A DNA stretch of 37,432 nt, taken from the NCBI GenBank assembly GCA_902610585.1, contig CACLWE010000010.1, positions 1 to 37,432 on the forward strand, in the 5' to 3' direction. The first letter of the stretch is position 1. Each line of letters starts with the position of its first letter. The position numbers and the translations under genes are program-made. Positions 2,394-16,495 of this stretch are shown piece after piece. The notes under the pieces are model-generated. The model searched no databases, was not told the DNA's origin, and saw only the letters and a list, made by a program, of their open reading frames with translations. The stretch comes from an uncultured Pelagibacteraceae bacterium (GTDB taxonomy: Bacteria > Pseudomonadota > Alphaproteobacteria > Pelagibacterales > AG-422-B15).

Positions 2394-3605
2394 TTATTTG
2401 TGCATTTGATTTGTAGGTTTTTCGAAAATTATTAGTGAGAAAGAAAACGCTGATAGGATTGCAGTTATTACAATCGTAATCGTAAATAAGTTTAAATTAT
2501 ACGCAAAAAGAAGTGCACCTAATGCTGGACCTACGGCAAAGCTAATGCTCCTTGAAAGGGCCATCCACCCTTTAGCTTGGCCATAAATTTGTGACTCAAA
2601 ATACATATTGGTGACATAACCATATGTTATTGTTAAAACACCGTGACCCATTCCGAAAAAAGCCATACTAATTGCGGCAACAAAAATATTATTTGTAAAT
2701 TGAGCTGTAAAAATTGAAAAAATTACAAACAAAAAGGCTATTAAGCCTGTATATCTTGCGTCGTAATGCTTTCCAATTTTCATTTCCAAGTATCTTCCTA
2801 CAAGTTGAAACGGGCCATATATACTCGCAAGTACAACCGCGATACTAATGTCATTAAATGTTTCTGTAAAAAAATTTACTAATGCAAGGGTAAATGCTAC
2901 AAAAAAAAAATTTTGTAAAGAAGAGGATATTGTAATATAAAAAAATGATTTCTTTTGTGTCTTCTTTAGCTCATTCCAATTAAATAATAACTTACTTTCA
3001 TTTAAGTATTCTATATTTGATTTGTATTTCATTTCCTTTGAGGACACAAGTACATAGCCAATTAATAAAATAATTGAAGTAAATAAACACGTATAGAATA
3101 AACCTACATTGTATATAAGTGGATAAATTGAAAGCCAGGTAATAGTGCTTGCTACCGCTCCATAAAAAGTAATTATTGAAATATTTTTTCTAGAATTGAT
3201 TTCATCCATTTGGACTGCCGCATTAAACGCCACCTCATAGGTTGACATACCAAGCCCCAAGGTAATTAGAAACATAGAAATAAACACCCACAATACATTT
3301 TTGAAAATAAATAAATCAATCTCTGTTATTCCAATAAAAATTGAGCCTATCATACCTAATAACAGGCCGTATTTAATTACGATTAGGCTTCCATGATGGT
3401 CTGACCATTTTCCAATCCGAGGCGCTAATAGGGCTTGAAATAACAGTGCTAAACTAAACATTGTGAGAATTAATTCCTCACTTAAATTGGTGTGCAGTGA
3501 GATATATTCTTTTAATGGGGCAATAGTATAGAATAAAAATCCGTAACCAATGATTGTTACAATTCCAATAGTATGAACAGGAAATAAACTATTATTTTCT
3601 TTCAA
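2394..3605 (-). CDS. MFS transporter in the phosphonate island
   Basis: A 403-residue major facilitator superfamily protein with about twelve hydrophobic segments and a central cytoplasmic loop near residues 190-220. A motif-A-like loop, APRIGKWSDHHG, follows the second segment. The substrate cannot be read from the sequence. Its place between C-P lyase and phnCDE genes, with a four-unit Pho-box-like array upstream, suggests transport of a phosphorus compound or export of a breakdown product. The start is uncertain: the frame opens with TTG at 3605 and the next Met is residue 49, inside the second hydrophobic segment, so TTG is preferred. It ends against the stop of the phnF-like gene. Confidence 0.75.
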   Translation of the reverse strand: MKENNSLFPVHTIGIVTIIGYGFLFYTIAPLKEYISLHTNLSEELILTMFSLALLFQALLAPRIGKWSDHHGSLIVIKYGLLLGMIGSIFIGITEIDLFIFKNVLWVFISMFLITLGLGMSTYEVAFNAAVQMDEINSRKNISIITFYGAVASTITWLSIYPLIYNVGLFYTCLFTSIILLIGYVLVSSKEMKYKSNIEYLNESKLLFNWNELKKTQKKSFFYITISSSLQNFFFVAFTLALVNFFTETFNDISIAVVLASIYGPFQLVGRYLEMKIGKHYDARYTGLIAFLFVIFSIFTAQFTNNIFVAAISMAFFGMGHGVLTITYGYVTNMYFESQIYGQAKGWMALSRSISFAVGPALGALLFAYNLNLFTITIVITAILSAFSFSLIIFEKPTNQMHK

Positions 3606-4572: not shown

Positions 4573-5982
4573 TTATTTTTTTGCCATTTTTGCCAATTGT
4601 AATTCTGCTCCTAGCGTTTCATCACCAATCAAAGCTCTTCTTACTTTTGCGGACATTGTATCCATGAAAATAACAACTCCTAAAATCAATAATGACATAT
4701 ACATAACATTTTCCCAACTGGTACCCGTATTTATTGCTCCAAGTAATTGTAAACCTATGCCGCCTGCGCCCATGGCACCTATAATAACAGCTCCTCTCGT
4801 GTTTGATTCTAAGTAGTAAAGAGTTTGGGAAATAAAAATAGGAAGTATTTGAGGTATAATTCCAAATCTGTGTTGAAGAGTTTTATTCGCTCCCGTAGAC
4901 TCTACACCTTCTTGTTGCTTTTCTTCGGTGTTTTCTATTGCTTCAGACATTAATTTTCCAAGAGTTCCTGTATCTGTAATTGCAATAGCAAATATTCCAG
5001 TAAATGGTCCTGGTCCGAAGGCTCTTAAAAAAATTAAGCTCCAAATCAAAAAATCGATGCCTCTTAATGTATCAAATAACCGTCTTAATATCGTTCGAAC
5101 AAATTTAAAAGGCGTTACATTGTAAGCTGCAAAAAATGCCAGAGGAAAACCCAGAAGAGCTGCTAGTAGGGTGCCCAATAGAGCCATAAAAATTGTCTCT
5201 AATAAAGCCCACAATATTTGTCCATGATGCCACATATCATTATTTAGAAATTCTTGAATTAGAAGCGAAAAATTTGAAATATTGGGGTCAACTCTATCGC
5301 CTGAGAATGAAAGTGAAATAGCATTCCAAATTCCATATGGTTCTAAAGGACTGTCAAAGTCAAACCAGAAATAGTTCCAACCAAGATTGTACCTATGTAC
5401 TTCAACTTTTTTTGAATAAACTTGAACTCTTTCGTAAAGAGATGGTCTAACCTCTATTTTATTTTCCGTTACCCTTATCCATTTTGGGAGATTATCTACA
5501 TTTTCAACGTAAGGCTTGCCTTGTGCATCAAGACGAAAAACAAGTGTTTCTTTGGTGTCTGGCCAGTTTTCTATTGTAACTTTATCATCGTATAGATTTG
5601 CAAACCCTCCATTTTTAAAACTTATTTTTGTTTCACCCTCTGGACCTATGGAAGTCCATTCAGGATACCTTTCTGGAAGACCGTCACTTTTTTGATAGGG
5701 GCCAACATACTGAGACCACCTGCTTCCTTCAAAGGATATAATTATATCATCTGGTTCACTCCATTTCATTGTGACATGGTCTTTATGTGCATATGTGTCG
5801 AGGGCAAACAATGAAGCTCTTTCAGGACTCCATTTTTTATGAATCTGCGATATGTCGAGGCTTAAAATTGCTATGATTAAATACACTATAATCCCGAGCA
5901 CTAAAAAAGTTGACCACATTTTAGATGAAAATTTAGTAACTACTATATCTGAATAATTTTTAATAATTTCAGACCTGTTCAT
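4573..5982 (-). CDS. phnE: Phosphonate ABC transporter permease, long PhnE type
   Basis: Inner-membrane permease of a phosphonate importer, about 469 residues, longer than the roughly 260-290 residues of short PhnE. An N-terminal membrane segment (about residues 20-42) is followed by a hydrophilic, Trp-rich region of around 170 residues, then a permease domain with five or six membrane segments. The EAA-type loop is seen as KLMSEAIENTEEKQQEGVESTGA. Long PhnE proteins paired with a short one are known in alphaproteobacterial PhoCDET/PhnCDE systems. The ATG at 5982 overlaps the stop of the preceding phnE as ATGA and is preferred to a start at 6012. Confidence 0.9.
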   Translation of the reverse strand: MNRSEIIKNYSDIVVTKFSSKMWSTFLVLGIIVYLIIAILSLDISQIHKKWSPERASLFALDTYAHKDHVTMKWSEPDDIIISFEGSRWSQYVGPYQKSDGLPERYPEWTSIGPEGETKISFKNGGFANLYDDKVTIENWPDTKETLVFRLDAQGKPYVENVDNLPKWIRVTENKIEVRPSLYERVQVYSKKVEVHRYNLGWNYFWFDFDSPLEPYGIWNAISLSFSGDRVDPNISNFSLLIQEFLNNDMWHHGQILWALLETIFMALLGTLLAALLGFPLAFFAAYNVTPFKFVRTILRRLFDTLRGIDFLIWSLIFLRAFGPGPFTGIFAIAITDTGTLGKLMSEAIENTEEKQQEGVESTGANKTLQHRFGIIPQILPIFISQTLYYLESNTRGAVIIGAMGAGGIGLQLLGAINTGTSWENVMYMSLLILGVVIFMDTMSAKVRRALIGDETLGAELQLAKMAKK

Positions 5983-6909: not shown

Positions 6910-7869
6910 TTATTCGGCTTTTTTAGCTTCAATTTTAGCTTTACGAGCAGCTACAATAGTTTCATAGAAACTATGGTCGACTGGCACCCAAGCTTTAACA
7001 ACTCCATTTGCAACATTCTCGCTGCATTGTGGGTCATTTTCATGGATCCACTGCTTCATGCCTACCATGACCTGATGCGCTCTCACAGGCATATTAGTTG
7101 GCATTACAATCGGTCCATTTGGTATCAAAGCAGATGACCAAATCTGTTTGATGTCATCCATATTTAATAGTCCTTTATCAACCATTTTTCTCAGATTTCC
7201 AGAAGAGTAACCTTCGCTCCATTCACCAACTCCAGATACCCATGTCACACCTGCATCGATATCACCATTAAGAACTGCCAAAACGTTATTTTCATGACCA
7301 CCTGAAAATTGTGTAGAGCCAAAGTATGAGTCTGGATCCATTCCTGCAGCTTTTAATTCGATTGATGGTATTAGATAACCAGATGTTGAATTAGGATCAG
7401 CCCATCCAAAAGATTTACCTTTTAAATCATCAATTGAATTGATACCTGAGTCTGCTCTTGTAACCATGACTGAATAATAGCCCATATCTCCTGTCGGCTG
7501 CATTCTAGTTAAAATTGGTACAGTAGCGGTAGGATCTTCTAGATATATACCCGCATATCCTGATGAGCCAAACCAAGCATAGTCTAAGCTGCCACCAAGC
7601 ATTGACTCCATTGTTCCTGCATAATCTTTAAAAGTATAAATTTTAGCTGGTACTCCGTATGCAACTTCCGCATATTCCTTTAGACATGCATTATTCTTAA
7701 TAATGTCTTGAGCTGATTCATCGCCTAAAAATCCAAGTCTCATTTCAGGTTGATATTTACTCAAGTCCATTGTTGGCCCTTTATAGCCAGATACATCCCA
7801 TGCGTATGCATTTGCAGACACAAAAAGGAATGAACAAGCAATAATAGACCTTACTAAATTTTTAATCAT
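6910..7869 (-). CDS. phnD: PhnD, phosphonate-binding periplasmic protein
   Basis: Periplasmic solute-binding protein of 319 residues that delivers phosphonate to the PhnE permeases. Residues 1-23 are a signal peptide ending AYA. The mature protein has features of the PhnD family (type 2 periplasmic-binding fold): MRLGFLGDESAQD near the start, YAWFGSSGYAGIY, DDLKGKSFGWADPNSTSGYLIP and NGDIDAGVTW. The SxxSGYxxP segment and the GSSGY segment form the expected oxyanion pocket. AAGGAG lies about 10 bases before the ATG. It is the second gene of phnC-D-E-E. Confidence 0.95.
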   Translation of the reverse strand: MIKNLVRSIIACSFLFVSANAYAWDVSGYKGPTMDLSKYQPEMRLGFLGDESAQDIIKNNACLKEYAEVAYGVPAKIYTFKDYAGTMESMLGGSLDYAWFGSSGYAGIYLEDPTATVPILTRMQPTGDMGYYSVMVTRADSGINSIDDLKGKSFGWADPNSTSGYLIPSIELKAAGMDPDSYFGSTQFSGGHENNVLAVLNGDIDAGVTWVSGVGEWSEGYSSGNLRKMVDKGLLNMDDIKQIWSSALIPNGPIVMPTNMPVRAHQVMVGMKQWIHENDPQCSENVANGVVKAWVPVDHSFYETIVAARKAKIEAKKAE

Positions 7870-7921
7870 TTTTAGTATATCTCCTTGTTAGTTGTTAAGT
7901 TTTTTTTTGAAAAGGCTAACA

Positions 7922-8725
7922 TTATCCTGCCTCTGCAAACTGTTCGTCACCAAGTGAAGTTGAAGTAACTGTTGGTTCAAATGCTTCTTCAGCTTCAGCG
8001 CCATAAATTTCTCTAGCAACATCATCTTTTAAACTTGAAGGTACATCATCAAAAACAATTTCCCCAAGTCTCATGCCAATGACTCTGTCACAATAATTTT
8101 TAGCGGTATCAAGAGTATGAAGATTTGCAAGAACAGTAATCTGCTTTTCTCTATGAATATTTCTAAGTGATTCCATTACAAGTCGGGCATTAAGAGGGTC
8201 TAGCGATGCAATAGGCTCGTCGGCTAAAATCATTTTTGGTTGCTGCATCATAGCTCTACAAATTGCAACCCTTTGTTGCTGTCCACCAGATAAAGTCTCT
8301 GCTCTTTGCAGCGCGGTTTCAGCCATTCCCAATTTATCCAGAGCCATCAATGCATCAACGCGTTCATCTTTAGTGAAAAGTTTTAAGCTTGATCGTAAAG
8401 TACCTTGAATATTTGATCTTCCAAGAATTACATTTGTTAAAACATCTAAACGGGGCACAAGATTGAATTGCTGAAATATCATGGCACAATCTTTTTGCCA
8501 TGCTCGTTTGTCTTTCTTTGTTAATGAAAGTATATTTCTGCCTTCAATAAAAATAGATCCACTAGTTGCGTCGGTTAGACGATTCATTATTCTCAGTAAT
8601 GTTGACTTTCCAGCACCAGATCTGCCAATTATACCAATCATTTCAGGTTTATTAATTTCAAATGTGACATCGTTTACTGCACGGTTGTCACCAAAATACT
8701 TATTTAATTTCTCTACTTTGATCAT
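7922..8725 (-). CDS. phnC: PhnC, phosphonate ABC transporter ATPase
   Basis: Cytoplasmic ATPase of the phosphonate importer, about 267 residues. Walker A is GRSGAGKST (34-42), the Q-loop lies in IFQQFNLV, the ABC signature is LSGGQQQRV (145-153) and Walker B is MILADEP (165-171). A short acidic C-terminal tail follows the ATPase core. I chose the ATG at 8725 ([12 protein letters not shown]), where the family's homologous start falls; an ATG at 8749 would add eight hydrophobic residues. It is the first gene of phnCDEE, with a Pho-box-like site about 70-90 bases upstream. Confidence 0.93.
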
Positions 8726-8796
8726 TAGTATGAATAAAAAGTAATACAAAAAAATTAAATCAAAGTTGCATTTTTATTACAGATATTTTGCAATTT

Positions 8797-8814
8797 ATTA
8801 CACTAATGTTACAG
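8797..8814 (-). promoter_or_regulatory. Pho-box-like site upstream of phnC
   Basis: On the minus strand the sequence reads CTGTAAC, ATTA, GTGTAAT: two 7-base direct repeats with a 4-base spacer, close to the CTGTCAT-N4-CTGTMAT layout of PhoB sites. It points toward phnC, and a third CTGTAAT occurs at 8776-8782. The divergent oxygenase gene at 8860 shares this spacer. Control by phosphate starvation through PhoB is inferred. Confidence 0.55.
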
Positions 8815-8859
8815 CTCAAATTATTGACATTAAAGAAAATATAATTAATCATTTAAATC

Positions 8860-9459
8860 ATGCAATTAGATAAAATCCAATCTCTAGAAAATAAATTAAA
8901 TTCAGCTTCAATTATTGAGCGTACCAATGTTTTATGTGAAATTATTGATCAAAGAGGTTCGTGCAGTTTTTATGACGAAGAGATTACTCAATTACAACAT
9001 GCTCTTCAGTGCGCAACCTTAGCTAAAGAAAATAATGAAAGTGATAAATTTATTACTGCTTCATTATTTCACGATTTAGGGCATATGTTGACTGGCGAAG
9101 ATGTAAATAGCCATGATTTTTTAAACAATGACAAGTATCATGAAAACGTTGCTGCATCTTTTTTATCCAAGTATTTCCCTGAAGAAGTTACTTACCCAAT
9201 TAAAATGCACGTTATTGCAAAGAGATATCTATGTTCCGTTCAATCAGATTATTATGACGGTCTTTCAGATGGCTCCAAAAGAAGTTTTAAACTTCAAGGC
9301 GGATATTTAAACAAAGATGCTATTCGAAAACTGGAAAGTCATAAATATTTTGAAGATGCAGTAAGACTTCGAAAGTATGATGACAATGCAAAAATTAGGG
9401 GTAAGAAAACTGAAGCTATTTCATTCTTTCATCCTTTTATTAAAAAGTCCTATATTTGA
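8860..9459 (+). CDS. PhnZ-family HD-domain mixed-valence diiron oxygenase
   Basis: A 199-residue HD-fold protein. Metal-ligand pattern: His47 (QLQHALQ), His71-Asp72 (FHDLGH), His94 (YHENVA), His117 (MHV) and Asp174 in LRKYDDNAK. Tyr38 and Glu41 form the YxxE signature that separates PhnZ-type oxygenases from ordinary HD phosphohydrolases. PhnZ cleaves 2-amino-1-hydroxyethylphosphonate to glycine and phosphate using O2; TmpB is a relative acting on a methylated substrate. The exact substrate here is not shown, and the usual partner hydroxylase PhnY is not in the window. The gene is divergent from phnC, and its stop overlaps the start of the following phosphatase-like gene. Confidence 0.8.
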   Translation: MQLDKIQSLENKLNSASIIERTNVLCEIIDQRGSCSFYDEEITQLQHALQCATLAKENNESDKFITASLFHDLGHMLTGEDVNSHDFLNNDKYHENVAASFLSKYFPEEVTYPIKMHVIAKRYLCSVQSDYYDGLSDGSKRSFKLQGGYLNKDAIRKLESHKYFEDAVRLRKYDDNAKIRGKKTEAISFFHPFIKKSYI

Positions 9460-9971
9460 ACTTTACTAAAATAAAGCTTTCGAAAATTGTTAAAGCAAAA
9501 AAAAATCTTGGTAATTTGGTTATATCCAGTTGTCCAGGTATCAGTAATTCTAGATTTGATAAATTTACTTATAAAAAAGATTTAACCATTATCATCGACT
9601 TAAATATGTCACTCGTTGTTTCATTGATAGAACTTAATGAAATTAGAAATTTTGAAATTAATCAGTTCCATAAAGATCTAGAGGAGAAGAATGTTAGGGC
9701 CTACAGCATGCCCATAAAAAACTATGGTATTCCAGCTCAGATTAAAAAAAATGAATATAGTCAAATTATCAGAGATTGTGTTACTCAGTTAGAACTCAAT
9801 AAAAATGTTTACCTGCATTGTTATGCTGGATTAGGTAGATCTGGAATGTTTGCTTCACTTATTTTAAAGGCACTAGGACTAGATTCAAAGCAATGCATAA
9901 ATCATGTAAGGAATTGCCGGCCAGGTACAATTGAAACAGAGGAACAAGAAAAATTTGTAATCAACTTTTAA
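9456..9971 (+). CDS. Protein tyrosine/dual-specificity phosphatase-fold protein
   Basis: A 171-residue cysteine-phosphatase-fold protein. The P-loop is HCYAGLGRSG, with Cys122, Arg128 and Ser129, and RPGTIETEEQEKFV follows, as in CDKN3-like phosphatases. The loop that normally carries the general-acid Asp reads MPIKNYGIPA, with no Asp at the expected place, so activity may be altered. The start is a TTG at 9456 overlapping the TGA of the oxygenase gene, so the two are probably co-translated. Coupling with a phosphonate oxygenase suggests action on a small phosphorylated or phosphonylated metabolite rather than protein, which is inference. It converges on phnX with a 4-base overlap. Confidence 0.75.
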   Translation: MNFTKIKLSKIVKAKKNLGNLVISSCPGISNSRFDKFTYKKDLTIIIDLNMSLVVSLIELNEIRNFEINQFHKDLEEKNVRAYSMPIKNYGIPAQIKKNEYSQIIRDCVTQLELNKNVYLHCYAGLGRSGMFASLILKALGLDSKQCINHVRNCRPGTIETEEQEKFVINF

Positions 9972-10804
9972 GGCCCTTCACCACGTGAAAGCCTTTTGTT
10001 AATATCATCAATAACGGCCTCGATATCTGCAATAGTTTCTATTACGTAATGCGCACCTGCTTTATAAAGCAGATCTTTTGCATATCCTTGTTTCATATCA
10101 ATTTCTTCTTTACTCAGTTCATCAGCTTCTTCTAAGGAATTTATATTCATATAATTCGAATATCGCGTTACACCAACACCCCAACAACCAGCATTAATTG
10201 CTTCTCCAATTCCTGAAACAGTATCATCAACTTTTATAACTGATTGAATGGATTCTATATTCATTATATCTAAATTTTTATATAACATGTGGGGAAGGGG
10301 CCGAACGCCATTTTTAACATCATCACCTGCAACTGACGCATCAGGGACATATCCCTGTTTTGCTGATTCTTCCTCTAAAATATTAACCATTGACCGCACA
10401 AAACCAGTTGTGCAACCAACTTTTATACCGCTATTTTGAACCCGTTTAATTACTTCTGCTGTTCCGGGTAATAATTTTGAGTATTGTTTTAAGCATTTAA
10501 GCTGCAGTGGAACAAAATCTGCGTACATATTTTCAACATCAGACATTTGTGGGTCTTTACCATGTACTGTGTTCCAGCGCTTTCTTATTTCAGCGTTCTC
10601 TGTGAGTGCTTTTATATGTAAATCTTTTCGTAAACCCATGGGTTCTCTAGCCTCTTCCATGGAGATTACAACCTTTTGTTTCTTAAAAACCTCAACAAAC
10701 ACTATAGTTGGAGCAATCACGTATGCGTCAGCAGTAGTTCCACTCCAGTCTAATACCAAACCTTTTATCTCTCCTTTATATCTATTTTCTGACAAATATT
10801 TCAA
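9968..10804 (-). CDS. phnX: Phosphonoacetaldehyde hydrolase (phosphonatase)
   Basis: HAD-superfamily enzyme of 278 residues that hydrolyses phosphonoacetaldehyde to acetaldehyde and phosphate. The nucleophile Asp19 lies in LDWSGTTAD. Lys60 in EPMGLRKDLHIKAL is 41 residues later, the same separation as Asp12 and the Schiff-base Lys53 of the Bacillus cereus enzyme. TTGFVRSMV, VKNGVRPLPHM and IKVDDTVSGI complete the HAD motifs. The DDTxxGI variant and the DINKRLSRGEGP tail resemble the Pseudomonas form. The start is TTG at 10804 with a weak AAAAGG upstream. phnW, which makes the substrate from 2-aminoethylphosphonate, is not in the window. Confidence 0.93.
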   Translation of the reverse strand: MKYLSENRYKGEIKGLVLDWSGTTADAYVIAPTIVFVEVFKKQKVVISMEEAREPMGLRKDLHIKALTENAEIRKRWNTVHGKDPQMSDVENMYADFVPLQLKCLKQYSKLLPGTAEVIKRVQNSGIKVGCTTGFVRSMVNILEEESAKQGYVPDASVAGDDVKNGVRPLPHMLYKNLDIMNIESIQSVIKVDDTVSGIGEAINAGCWGVGVTRYSNYMNINSLEEADELSKEEIDMKQGYAKDLLYKAGAHYVIETIADIEAVIDDINKRLSRGEGP

Positions 10805-12527: not shown

Positions 12528-12888
12528 ATTGTTAATAAGAAATATATGTCAACCTCCAGATAGCAATCCTTACGGCACGGCTCATGGAGCCTGGATAGTA
12601 AAGCAAATGGCACATGGAGGCATTTATATGACTCAGCTTGTATCAAAAGGAAACGCTGTATTAGTGGAATCGAAGGTTAAATATAAAAATCCAATGCATG
12701 TTGGTAAATTTATCAATGTTTACGGATCAATTGTATCTGTAAAGCAGTCCAAAATGATATTCAAAATCACCGCAATGCGTTCTGAAATGAACCAAAAAGA
12801 AGTTGAAGTGGCGGTAGGGGAGTTTTCTTACGTTGCTATCAATGATAAAAATAAAACAAGAAAATTTAAACCAAATTTAAAAATCTAA
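12520..12888 (+). CDS. Acyl-CoA thioesterase, YciA-like hotdog protein
   Basis: A 122-residue single hotdog-domain protein. DSNPYGTAHGAWIVKQMAHGG corresponds to the YciA block (D-x-N-x-x-G-x-x-x-G-G-W-I-M-x-Q-M-D-x-G-G), followed by VESKVKYKNPMHVGKFINVYGSI as in the family. YciA-type enzymes hydrolyse a range of acyl-CoAs in the cytoplasm. The catalytic Asp/Glu after QM is His here (QMAHGG), a departure that may change activity or specificity. It overlaps the upstream VanZ-like gene by 8 bases and ends shortly before a hairpin that terminates minus-strand transcription. Confidence 0.75.
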   Translation: MNKLLIRNICQPPDSNPYGTAHGAWIVKQMAHGGIYMTQLVSKGNAVLVESKVKYKNPMHVGKFINVYGSIVSVKQSKMIFKITAMRSEMNQKEVEVAVGEFSYVAINDKNKTRKFKPNLKI

Positions 12889-12892
12889 AAAA

Positions 12893-12916
12893 AAGCCCCC
12901 AAATTAATGGGGGCTT
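12893..12916 (-). terminator. Intrinsic terminator of the minus-strand peptide gene
   Basis: AAGCCCCC (12893-12900) and GGGGGCTT (12909-12916) form an 8-bp stem around an 8-base loop. On the minus strand the stem is followed by a run of eight T; on the plus strand no T-run follows. It therefore ends transcription coming from the right on the minus strand, where the only short-range gene is the 32-codon ORF at 12924-13022. Confidence 0.85.
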
Positions 12917-12923
12917 AATGTAG

Positions 12924-13022
12924 TTAAACCGGAGCTCCACTCAAAAAGTGGAGGTTTCCACATCTACAATCACATGGAATTTCACTACTCGAGCAAAGCT
13001 CCTCTATACTACCTATAGACAT
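12924..13022 (-). CDS. 32-residue cysteine-rich peptide, possible RiPP precursor or regulatory peptide
   Basis: A 32-codon ORF (ATG 13022 to TAA 12924). It has a perfect AAGGAGGT Shine-Dalgarno (13028-13035) 5 bases before the ATG and an intrinsic terminator 8 bases after the stop. Cysteines fall at 10, 17, 19 and 21; the last three form CDCRCG. The N-terminal half is acidic and Ser-rich (EEL, SSSE) and the C-terminal half ends GAPV. The TTGAAA / TATATA pair upstream (16-base spacing) is a plausible promoter. It could be a leader-plus-core peptide precursor, a metal-binding peptide or a cysteine-sensing leader. No radical SAM, YcaO, lanthipeptide or DUF692 maturation gene is seen nearby. Peptide family unrecognised. 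Confidence 0.65.
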   Translation of the reverse strand: MSIGSIEELCSSSEIPCDCRCGNLHFLSGAPV

Positions 13023-13107
13023 AGACCACCTCCTTTCATTAAATATGGTTAAAACTGTATTAGTATATATAATTTACTGGATTCTTATTTCAATCAAGGA
13101 GTTTATT

Positions 13108-13545
13108 ATGCAACCCGAATTAATTTTTGAGCCAGTCATCAATATGTTATGGCTTTCTTTGGCAGTTTTTGCCTTTGGGACAGTCCTTAGACTTAAGGCT
13201 ATTGTCATCGATAAGAAGAATACAGAAGATGATTTCAAAATACCCACTTTTGAAAACGGCAGTGAATTAATTCAAAATAGTCAGAGAAATTTGACAAATT
13301 TATTCGAATTTCCAATCTTCTTTTACGCAGTTTGCATTATGATTTATGTAACGGGAACAGTTGATGAGTATTTTATGTTGTTAGCAACATGGTTCTTTTG
13401 GTTAAGAGTTCTACACTCAATCGTTCACATATTTTATAATAAAATCATACCTGGTGTTGCCTTGCCAGTTAGAACGTTATTTTGGTTACCGTCTACGATT
13501 ATCCTGGCGTGGATGGCTTATCGAGCCTGCTCTTTAATGATCTGA
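13108..13545 (+). CDS. MAPEG-family membrane protein (first of two)
   Basis: A 145-residue protein with four membrane segments in the MAPEG superfamily (membrane-associated eicosanoid/glutathione metabolism). The typical block is RNLTNLFEFPIFFYAVC, followed by WLRVLHSIVHIFYNKIIPG, which matches the R-x-x-H-S-x-x-H segment of bacterial MAPEG proteins. The ATG at 13108 is preferred because AAGGAG lies 6 bases before it; an ATG at 13045 would add residues over the promoter region of the minus-strand peptide gene. Substrate unknown. The second MAPEG gene overlaps its stop codon. Confidence 0.82.
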   Translation: MQPELIFEPVINMLWLSLAVFAFGTVLRLKAIVIDKKNTEDDFKIPTFENGSELIQNSQRNLTNLFEFPIFFYAVCIMIYVTGTVDEYFMLLATWFFWLRVLHSIVHIFYNKIIPGVALPVRTLFWLPSTIILAWMAYRACSLMI

Positions 13546-14405: not shown

Positions 14406-15116
14406 ATGACAAATTTTGGCTATATTCCTGTATATGCGCTTAGATTCATGATTGCATATTTTATTGTAACGAATGCCGCAGCAATGATTTTATTTCCTGG
14501 AGGAACTTTATTTAATCCATATTTAAATTCTTACTCTTTTAGTGGAAATTTTTTTAGTGACTTGGGAATCACATTTACTCGCGATGGCACTCAGAACTTT
14601 CTCTCAAGTTTCTTATTTAACAGCTCTTTGTTGATAATGGGATTATGCGCTGTCTCTCACGTATTTGTACCAAATTTATTTAGAGAGAATAAGAAAAGTT
14701 TTATAATTTCAGTCATTGCATCAATTTTATTAGTTATTTCTGGAATATCTTTCATTGGCGTTGGTTTAACACCAGCTGATATTTATTTTGAAGAGCATGT
14801 TTGGTTTGTTATTTTAGCTTTTAACGCTCAAACTGTTGGTATTTTTTTTATGACAATTGCATTTTTACTAAGCAAAATAAGTAATAGATATACTATTGTT
14901 GCTTTTATCTATTTTATAAATGTCGCTCTTTATACAATATTTGAAACAAGTGAGCCTCCACCTGACTTCAATCCATTTGAATTGGAAAATGTTGAAGAGT
15001 TTATAGATTACAACCGATTCACTATATCAGTTATTTGGCAAAAAATAATTACAGTTATTTCTATGATCAGTATTCTGATCTTTACATTTGGTTACAAGAA
15101 ACTTTTAAATGACTAG
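14406..15116 (+). CDS. Polytopic membrane protein, paralogue 1 of 3 (DUF998-like)
   Basis: A 236-residue protein with about six membrane segments. It shares with its two neighbours FPGG near the first segment, YSFSGNFFSDLG, FLSSFLFNSSLL, VFVPNLF and a GVGLTPADIYFEEHV block. The sequential SDLG and polar Asn/Asp/His residues resemble DUF998 membrane proteins, which have no known function. The conserved acidic residues and His at membrane borders could mean catalysis rather than structure; that is inference. The next gene starts within its last codons, an 8-base overlap. Confidence 0.6.
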   Translation: MTNFGYIPVYALRFMIAYFIVTNAAAMILFPGGTLFNPYLNSYSFSGNFFSDLGITFTRDGTQNFLSSFLFNSSLLIMGLCAVSHVFVPNLFRENKKSFIISVIASILLVISGISFIGVGLTPADIYFEEHVWFVILAFNAQTVGIFFMTIAFLLSKISNRYTIVAFIYFINVALYTIFETSEPPPDFNPFELENVEEFIDYNRFTISVIWQKIITVISMISILIFTFGYKKLLND

Positions 15117-15825
15117 ATTCTGGTGTGTACATATCCCAAGAATTGCATCTGCTTATTATATTTTTGCGGTAATCATTGCTATGCTTCTATATCCTGGCGG
15201 TAATCATATAGAACTAGATCAAGTAGGTTATTCATTTCATAAAAATTTTCTTAGTGAGCTTGGTTTTCACAAAACAATGTCTGGAGATCTAAATTTTTTT
15301 TCATCCTTTTTTTGGAATACTGCAATGTACATGCTCTTATTACAAGGCATAGCTTTTTTGTTTATTCCGAGTTTATTTAGGGTAAATCGTTACTCGTTTA
15401 TATTTGCTTGTTTAGGAACATTATTTATGTTTCCGGCTTGTGTTTTTTTTGTAGGAGTTGCCTTAACACCAGGTGATATTTACTTTGATGCGCATCTATT
15501 TACTACAACTATGGCATTTAATTTATACTCTGTAGCAATTCTCTTTTATGTTCTTGCTTTTTTATTTAGTCCTTTATCAAACCATTATGCGTCAGGAGGT
15601 GTACTACTTTTTATTGCAGTAGGAGTTTATGCCTATTATCTTGGTGACTTTCAACCGATTGATGCAATAAATGACCGTGTTCGTTTTTTAGAAACGTACA
15701 CAATGGATTTCTTGATATTTAATGTAGTGTTACAGAAGGTGATGATTATTCTAATGATTACAACGATTATCATGTTTACGTTTGGCCTCGATAAGTTAAT
15801 AGGAAAAAAAAATGCAAATGACTAA
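15109..15825 (+). CDS. Polytopic membrane protein, paralogue 2 of 3 (DUF998-like)
   Basis: A 238-residue paralogue with the same pattern of about six membrane segments: YPGGN, GYSFHKNFLSELG, DLNFFSSFFWNTA, LFIPSLF, then VGVALTPGDIYFDAHLF. It is closest to paralogue 3 (GYSFxxNFLSELG and VALTP blocks shared). The start ATGACTAG at 15109 overlaps the end of paralogue 1 by 8 bases, and the same junction recurs before paralogue 3, indicating tandem duplication with the junction kept. Function unknown. Confidence 0.6.
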   Translation: MTRFWCVHIPRIASAYYIFAVIIAMLLYPGGNHIELDQVGYSFHKNFLSELGFHKTMSGDLNFFSSFFWNTAMYMLLLQGIAFLFIPSLFRVNRYSFIFACLGTLFMFPACVFFVGVALTPGDIYFDAHLFTTTMAFNLYSVAILFYVLAFLFSPLSNHYASGGVLLFIAVGVYAYYLGDFQPIDAINDRVRFLETYTMDFLIFNVVLQKVMIILMITTIIMFTFGLDKLIGKKNAND

Positions 15826-16495
15826 ATTTTGGACAGTCTATATCATTCGATTTGTATCAATTTTTTTTGTTGTCTCAGTAATTATTGCTTCATATTTTTT
15901 TCCAGGAGGAAACATTCATGATCCTGATCAAATTGGTTATTCATTTAGTCATAATTTTTTAAGTGAACTGGGTGGGTACATTACATTTGCGGGAGATATT
16001 AACAGCATTTCATCATTTTTTTTTAACTCCGCGCTTTTTTGTTTTTTATTGGTCGGAATATCGAGTTTTTTCATTCCATCATTATTTACAGAAAATAAAG
16101 TTTCTTATCTTTGTGCATGCATAGCAGCAGTACTTTTTTTCATTGGAATGGTATTTTTTGCTGGAGTAGCCCTAACGCCGCACGATTTATATAGAGATGC
16201 ACATGTATTTTTTGCAATAAATGCATTTCGTTGGTTAGTACCAGCATCATTATTCTTTGTAATAGCCTTTTTTCTAAGTAATGCGGACAATAAGTATACT
16301 GTTGTGAATATTATTTTTCTTATATCAACCGTTATCTATGTAATTTATCAAATATACTCTGGTGATCCAAGATTGAATGAAGAACTATTAGTGCAAAATG
16401 TATTAATGCAAAAATCTATAGCAATAATCCATATTATCAGTATTTTTTCTCTTACCTTCTGCTTCAACAGCCAAATAAAAAATAAAAATTTATAA
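15818..16495 (+). CDS. Polytopic membrane protein, paralogue 3 of 3 (DUF998-like)
   Basis: A paralogue of about 225 residues with YFFPGGN, GYSFSHNFLSELG, DINSISSFFFNSA, FFIPSLF and AGVALTPHDLYRDAHVF. I chose the ATG at 15818 (MTKFWTVY), which aligns with MTRFWCVH of paralogue 2 and recreates the 8-base ATGACTAA overlap; an ATG at 15812 is also in frame. It converges on the amidase gene and overlaps its stop by 6 bases. Function unknown. Confidence 0.6.
   Translation: MTKFWTVYIIRFVSIFFVVSVIIASYFFPGGNIHDPDQIGYSFSHNFLSELGGYITFAGDINSISSFFFNSALFCFLLVGISSFFIPSLFTENKVSYLCACIAAVLFFIGMVFFAGVALTPHDLYRDAHVFFAINAFRWLVPASLFFVIAFFLSNADNKYTVVNIIFLISTVIYVIYQIYSGDPRLNEELLVQNVLMQKSIAIIHIISIFSLTFCFNSQIKNKNL

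Follow-up and report, generated by a model that had tools for sequence, protein, structure and literature searches.

CC2171 was reportedly described by Landt in 2008. Rfam holds it as RF01867, a model of 159 positions typed as an sRNA gene, and the literature searched yielded no function for it; the open reading frame (ORF) that we place within it is a reading made here. The accessible portions of the sources list RF01867 among the families with improved structure in the Rfam 15 paper, and also in a Mesorhizobium sRNA table. According to the accessible text of a Caulobacter map, ribosome profiling finds most ncRNAs untranslated and two previously predicted ncRNAs translated, and about three quarters of the coding genes have no Shine-Dalgarno (SD) site (PMC4117421); the first of these observations counts against reading an RNA of this kind as translated. 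The SAR11 RNA described here shares with CC2171 a 5' block, GAAAGGAGGUGAUCC-N-GUGUCU, a closing helix soon after the start and a terminator-like 3' stem. It differs in being AT-rich, in lacking the CAACAAC leader and, in every SAR11 copy bar one (L032), in having one base fewer ahead of the start codon.

Other described systems resemble it in part. The dual-function sRNAs SR1/SR1P and rnTrpL/peTrpL are likewise small RNAs with a short ORF, as far as the accessible parts of the sources go (PMC8501984, PMC10117765), translation being predicted from sequence in our case; however, the peptides of the wider group look unrelated, the SD is complementary to the 16S tail over its full length, and the likeness comes without a known base-pairing target and in a setting where Hfq was found in 0/59 SAR11 genomes. 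Extended SD-anti-SD initiation in Staphylococcus aureus also involves SD pairing beyond the canonical core at natural starts, but the portion of that work consulted concerns two extra pairs on ordinary mRNAs (PMC13009471), compared with 14–15 pairs on one small RNA here. Structured RNA candidates of Pelagibacter (PMC2704228) and small ORFs of HIMB5 (PMC6429828) are, like this locus, free-standing and intergenic in SAR11; they come from other strains, and the accessible text of these reports describes none with a 16S complement and an ORF. Searches for extended SDs in small RNAs, for conserved alphaproteobacterial sRNAs with an SD and a short ORF, and for ribosome sequestration by sRNAs gave nothing matching in the parts of the literature that could be consulted.

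Results

The locus and its translation start

The window, that is, the whole stretch of DNA analysed, comprises 37,432 nucleotides of an uncultured Pelagibacteraceae bacterium. An earlier note on this DNA had proposed a free-standing minus-strand transcript for a 32-residue CxCxC peptide. The ORF is present as claimed: it runs on the minus strand from 13022 to 12924 (ATG at 13022-13020, TAA at 12926-12924), has 32 codons plus stop, and encodes MSIGSIEELCSSSEIPCDCRCGNLHFLSGAPV, with four cysteines. It stands alone between two plus-strand genes, one of the 4HBT thioesterase family and one of the MAPEG family, and the dedicated terminator attributed to it was confirmed on the minus strand as a stem (12916-12893) that begins 7 nt after the stop codon and is followed by a T-run, the whole covering 12885-12916. 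Three terminator-like sites occur in 2 kb, against 0.9 expected in shuffles. Judged by sequence, the locus is a free-standing transcription unit with an exceptional translation start; the observation made in the note is real, and its interpretation is supported in part.

The ribosome-binding site AAGGAGGT, with its 5-nt spacer, had been correctly described and called the best in the window, a description that understates it. The extended SD GAAAGGAGGTGGTC (13024-13037, minus strand) is the full complement of the 16S 3' tail: it pairs without interruption, over 14 nt and including one G-U, with the genome's own 16S tail GATCACCTCCTTTC, which was read in L049. This duplex amounts to -25.7 kcal/mol, whereas the best of 32 other gene starts in the window, mostly those of the ORF list and not re-chosen, reaches -9.5. 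The extended SD is invariant over 40 loci except for a G-to-A change in three genomes, which converts the G-U pair to A-U. The exact extended SD with its ATG was found in 40/397 genomes of the order, once per carrier and always at this locus, and in 0/344 genomes of the sister family. Predictions leave the 16S complement unpaired or within a weak local hairpin. Energetically, the duplex exceeds that of every other compared start in the window by more than a factor of two, and each carrier genome has a single exact site; this might suggest a 30S decoy, in which a 14–15 bp duplex with the 16S tail would retain ribosomes at the start and lower or tune global initiation. We hold this to be unlikely: a decoy requires neither a stop kept at 14–35 codons nor a closing helix, both of which are described below.

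Upstream, alignment points to a candidate promoter, TTGAAA-16-TATATA (13066-13093, minus strand), within a conserved block next to where the divergent gene starts; it is a weak candidate, as a consensus scan did not return it. Most of the block itself, CTTGATTGAAATNAGAATC (window 13073-13110), is kept ahead of the RNA. It shares bases with the SD of the divergent MAPEG-family gene and is a candidate promoter of the RNA, of the MAPEG-family gene, or of both.

An Rfam scan of the window gave a tRNA-Ser as its sole match at gathering level. Most of the permissive matches at the locus include the terminator; the match to CC2171 proved informative and is taken up below.

The earlier note had offered a regulatory leader as its alternative to a peptide. 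An RNA is indeed a serious alternative, but its leader form fares poorly. The combination of an ORF and competing hairpins does resemble attenuators; nevertheless, a cis-acting leader or attenuator of a neighbouring gene is very improbable, because a divergent MAPEG-family gene lies upstream and a convergent 4HBT thioesterase-family gene lies beyond the terminator in 9/9 loci (eight genomes, four genera; names from Pfam). The hairpin described at 12935-12953 exists, although in the predicted fold its bases preferentially take part in a longer rod. The ACCTCC thought capable of pairing with the SD is present within GGAAACCTCCAC (12959-12948), but this pairing is no better than that of shuffled sequence (p 0.445).

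Two other features of the window were recorded. Three tandem paralogues of 227–238 aa with mutual identities of 35–42% (14406-16495), the first matching DUF998, adjoin two MAPEG-family genes and have fewer copies in several relatives. A cluster of genes for a phosphonate-binding protein, an ABC ATPase and a HAD hydrolase (Pfam; 6910-10804, compared with L098 9038-12093 and L038 6466-8002) has main ORFs 94–99% identical to genomes of other genera, neighbouring genes being about 41–82% identical; it looks like a phosphonate-use island recently transferred between SAR11 genera.

Distribution in SAR11

An RNA model found full-length copies in 40/53 genomes of the SAR11 family, 32/43 in the genus and 8/10 in three other genera, and the flanking synteny of the locus is kept in the four genera. 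A protein profile run across the order recovered the same 40 carriers, all below 1e-19; beyond them it gave matches at E<=10 in 49 genomes, the best at 0.09, and the loci of eight of these, when fetched, were read as unrelated ORFs. When 97 relatives were searched at the DNA level, 46 genomes matched; six of these belong to the sister family and match over the terminator alone. The RNA model, searched against 297 genomes of the order, gave weak matches (E 0.0014–0.28) in six sister-family genomes.

No copy was found in 13 genomes of the family, an absence that may be only apparent. Five of these (G011, G030, G033, G008 and G047) carry the linked amidase on a contig that, by the spacing in G040, ends before the locus. 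G016 has an amidase match of 29% only, and the other seven show no amidase match at 1e-30. Searches of phage proteins, plasmid proteins and viral peptides returned no match, and an 11-residue match in a Pedobacter genome contig was taken as chance.

Constraint on the peptide and on the RNA

Conservation of the cysteines was checked across relatives, as the earlier note had advised, and the CxCxC reading did not hold. CDCRC is complete in 16/40 loci; the third cysteine is replaced by tyrosine (CDCRY) in 15/40, Cys10 alone is kept in two (L032 and L033), and seven of the 40 have no cysteine. The three other genera of the family lack the motif, as does one species of the same genus. A cysteine-rich RiPP precursor or a metal-binding peptide, which the four cysteines in the window's own genome and the 16 loci with CDCRC would favour, is therefore extremely improbable in view of these substitutions and losses and of the peptide's lack of any match in Pfam or NCBIfam; the core cysteines of a Cys-type RiPP precursor are not conserved over the 40 loci. 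The cysteines of the window peptide look incidental.

The ORF itself is maintained. It is open in 40/40 loci, with 32 or 33 codons, and no other of the six frames stays open throughout the 16 aligned sequences, as this one does; 15 of the 16 are distinct. Its total length changes are multiples of three, the stop is kept beside a variable last codon, and the peptide ends, MSISSI.. and GNLHFxSGAP, are nearly invariant across four genera while the centre varies. All of this speaks for a small mRNA encoding a functional 32–33 residue protein in which the conserved ends do the work and RNA structure is secondary, a reading that we regard as a real possibility, albeit a doubtful one. The ends, however, are unchanged at silent positions too: 5–6 of their 6 four-fold sites are identical to genera g2 and g4, compared with 9–12 of 28–30 in the neighbouring thioesterase gene, and their codon identity exceeds that in the flanking genes. 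UAGAUAU, near the centre, is common to genera, yet by eye its reading frame differs between the two members of each of two genus pairs. Against a protein also stand the constraint of the centre for pairing, presented in the next section, and the class-wide peptides, which by eye look mostly unrelated between lineages. We conclude that the RNA level is constrained at least as much as the peptide; the conserved ends, GNLHFxSGAP in particular, leave room for a peptide function in the SAR11 family.

Predicted fold

The whole transcript folds much better than its shuffles (z -5.75, 0/200 as good), and does so without its terminator as well (z -3.81, 1/200). Fold and base-pair probabilities place the closing helix of a long rod, P1, between GUAGU (13008-13012, minus strand), which starts in codon 4, and ACUAC (12920-12924), which includes the final base of the stop codon and ends 3 nt ahead of the terminator stem. 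Four of its five pairs have a probability of at least 0.53 in all seven sequence groups, the outermost pair being absent in g3. The next helix of this long hairpin, P2, pairs GGAGC (12998-13002) with GCUCC (12931-12935) and is predicted in all seven groups at pair probabilities of 0.98–1.0, while inner rod pairs shift between genera.

Within the distal rod (12936-12997, minus strand), codons diverge between genera and pairing is kept, according to pair probabilities and to shuffles confined to the centre. When the variable centre was altered with the rest held fixed, the predicted fold was weakened at p<0.05 in 9/11 sequences under dinucleotide shuffling, in 10/11 under codon permutation and in 8/11 under synonymous recoding. 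L034 fails all three (p 0.33, 0.14 and 0.18), and L036 and L040 each fail one or two. RNAalifold within the SAR11 family detected two-sided changes in the terminator stem only. These simulations suggest that the variable centre is selected to pair. The earlier note had named a broken ORF beside a kept hairpin as the pattern that would point to an RNA rather than a peptide; the loci show something else. As the ORF is open in 40/40 while the centre diverges and the pairing persists, both the ORF and the rod are maintained.

A class-wide group of RNAs

The SAR11-built RNA model was run on 385 genomes of the class and gave, beyond its own, four matches at E<0.001. Three of them (G632, G593 and G762) carry the same 5' block, which is also found in two weaker matches (G640 and G719); the fourth, G567 (model R1, E 5.1e-4), is without the block and was dropped. 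The Rfam CC2171 model begins with this block and matches the class loci found by the SAR11 model below its gathering score. We defined a group by AAAGGAGGTGRTC followed within 5 nt by TGTCT. This block is present in 41/260 class genomes (own included) and 38/215 genera, the reversed pattern used as a control being present in 0/260. At all 41 places outside SAR11 the block lies at one and the same distance from the start codon, out of five that the pattern permitted, and A, G or T always precedes TG. The window locus carries the block with a spacing one base shorter than at these 41 places.

We read 32 loci, namely 30 of the 42 block places and two from the model search, the window's own included. 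The first in-frame stop falls at codon 14–35 in 31/32, the remaining locus running off its contig, whereas in the other two frames it does so in 9/32 and 4/32. In 29/31 loci the stop is followed by a terminator that reaches a set strength, compared with 1/257 control windows; the window locus, with its 32 codons and a terminator stem 7 nt beyond the stop, conforms. It also has the closing helix, one arm of which lies shortly past the start codon and the other shortly ahead of the terminator. Pairing of the two arms was assessed by swapping them between loci: own arms average -13.2 kcal/mol and swapped arms -8.7, with 0/5000 permutations as good (n=29). The window's own row ranks only 27th of 29, because its 3' segment is clipped at the stop. 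Folded without terminator, the class loci have a mean z of -2.6 and lie below -1.5 in 23/31. Related loci were counted separately in all these tests (stop position, terminator, arm swap and folding), and, as the search pattern fixed the block and TGTCT, the conservation of these is no evidence in these loci.

In one lineage, the peptides repeatedly contain a TWIVAS-like stretch, at a position where the sequence resembles the 16S tail. Sequestration of the SD by such an internal mimic was significant (p<0.05) in 6/37 sequences, with a combined value of 9e-6 that is not corrected for relatedness, and in 0/7 SAR11 sequences.

RF01867 matches 16 of the 20 class loci submitted (of 30) at E<=0.001, with up to 90.5 bits, and five of the 20 lie above gathering. 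The window locus scores 22 bits, below the gathering threshold of 75, and is not assigned to the family. Conversely, a model built from 15 non-SAR11 loci (R2) finds the window locus at exactly the right place with 25.9 bits (E 7e-6 in 130,518 bases). A further six loci of the SAR11 family score 16.7–31.6 bits with it. Phage genes bearing the block reach 28.7 and 25.0 bits with R2, scores alike to that of the window, and the link from SAR11 to the class rests largely on the 5' block. With phage genes scoring alike and the window far under the CC2171 threshold, we claim the same plan, and regard common descent of the SAR11 RNA with Caulobacter CC2171 as likely but not proven.

Methylobacterium and Skermanella also have copies with the same plan on large plasmids or secondary replicons; the gene table consulted, an incomplete one, lists no gene at these positions. 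On a Methylobacterium radiotolerans plasmid (L162), a CC2171-like copy at about 2513 has umuD and the gene of a Y-family polymerase at a distance of about 2 kb, and a second, weak model match lies at 4997-5050.

The block was found on 29 viral contigs as well. Their ORFs span 14–1025 codons, 6/29 falling within 14–35; the spacing is variable and four blocks are preceded by CTG. These viral occurrences caution against over-reading the block. Five of the viral sequences (L164, L173, L184, L185 and L188) encode small proteins starting VS[SN]CG.KRM, with the same full 16S-tail complement before GTGTCTA. Another viral contig, L165, has at 3194-3240 a CAACAACG-extended-SD block with a 14-codon ORF that scores 37.5 bits with the non-SAR11 model; it may be a prophage edge or a carried copy.

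Discussion

We favour, with modest confidence, the view that the locus is a translated, structured small RNA acting via ribosome docking and translation, that is, a ribosome-gated riboregulator; transcription in SAR11, translation, gating and any target of the RNA are inferred here from sequence features. The free-standing gene would give rise to an RNA of about 150–170 nt, whose 5' end is predicted to be unpaired or only weakly paired and may dock the 30S subunit through the full-length complement of the 16S tail. A few codons past the start, the coding strand would form one side of the helix that closes the long rod, which ends at the terminator. The ORF, mostly of 20–35 codons, would climb this rod, with its stop inside the rod or, in SAR11, at the closing helix. 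If so, ribosome docking and translation must open the rod, and an unoccupied RNA would refold; a docked or translating ribosome and a closed rod presumably exclude each other. The state of the rod, the contacts of its strands or the lifetime of the RNA might then report whether ribosomes initiate and translate. Since the start and the stop are kept while the peptide is not, translation rather than its product would be the point, the peptide being probably in the main a by-product.

Two usual partners of sRNAs can be set aside in this lineage. CsrA (PF02599) was found in 0/59 SAR11 genomes (the window's own and 58 relatives) and in 3/14 control genomes, and Hfq (PF17209) in 0/59 of the same genomes, control genomes being positive. 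A GGA-rich RNA that titrates CsrA was accordingly rejected, as was dependence of the RNA on Hfq.

A more speculative proposal, to which we give only limited credence, is that the RNA senses the ribosome itself: the full 14–15 nt complement of the 16S tail would be a bait, and translation of a minigene of limited length and arbitrary sequence would open the rod, which would otherwise close a short way past the start codon, the peptide being irrelevant. In one lineage, a mimic of the 16S tail within the ORF, such as CUGGAUCGUCGCCUCC, may pair with the bait. Such pairing could constitute a two-state switch between binding of a free 30S subunit and self-pairing, with the ribosome as ligand.

The locus is also a caution, in that the look of one sequence is poor ground for calling short ORFs functional peptides. 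Beyond SAR11, an orphan sRNA entry of Rfam seems to represent a small part of a larger set of RNAs, spread over the class and built for ribosome binding, RNAs that by their sequences would be translated while the encoded product hardly seems to matter. With about three quarters of Caulobacter genes devoid of an SD site, according to the accessible text of the map cited above (PMC4117421), an RNA with a full complement of the 16S tail would be striking in that organism. If the gating model is true, these RNAs would provide the cell with a gauge of free ribosomes or of initiation.
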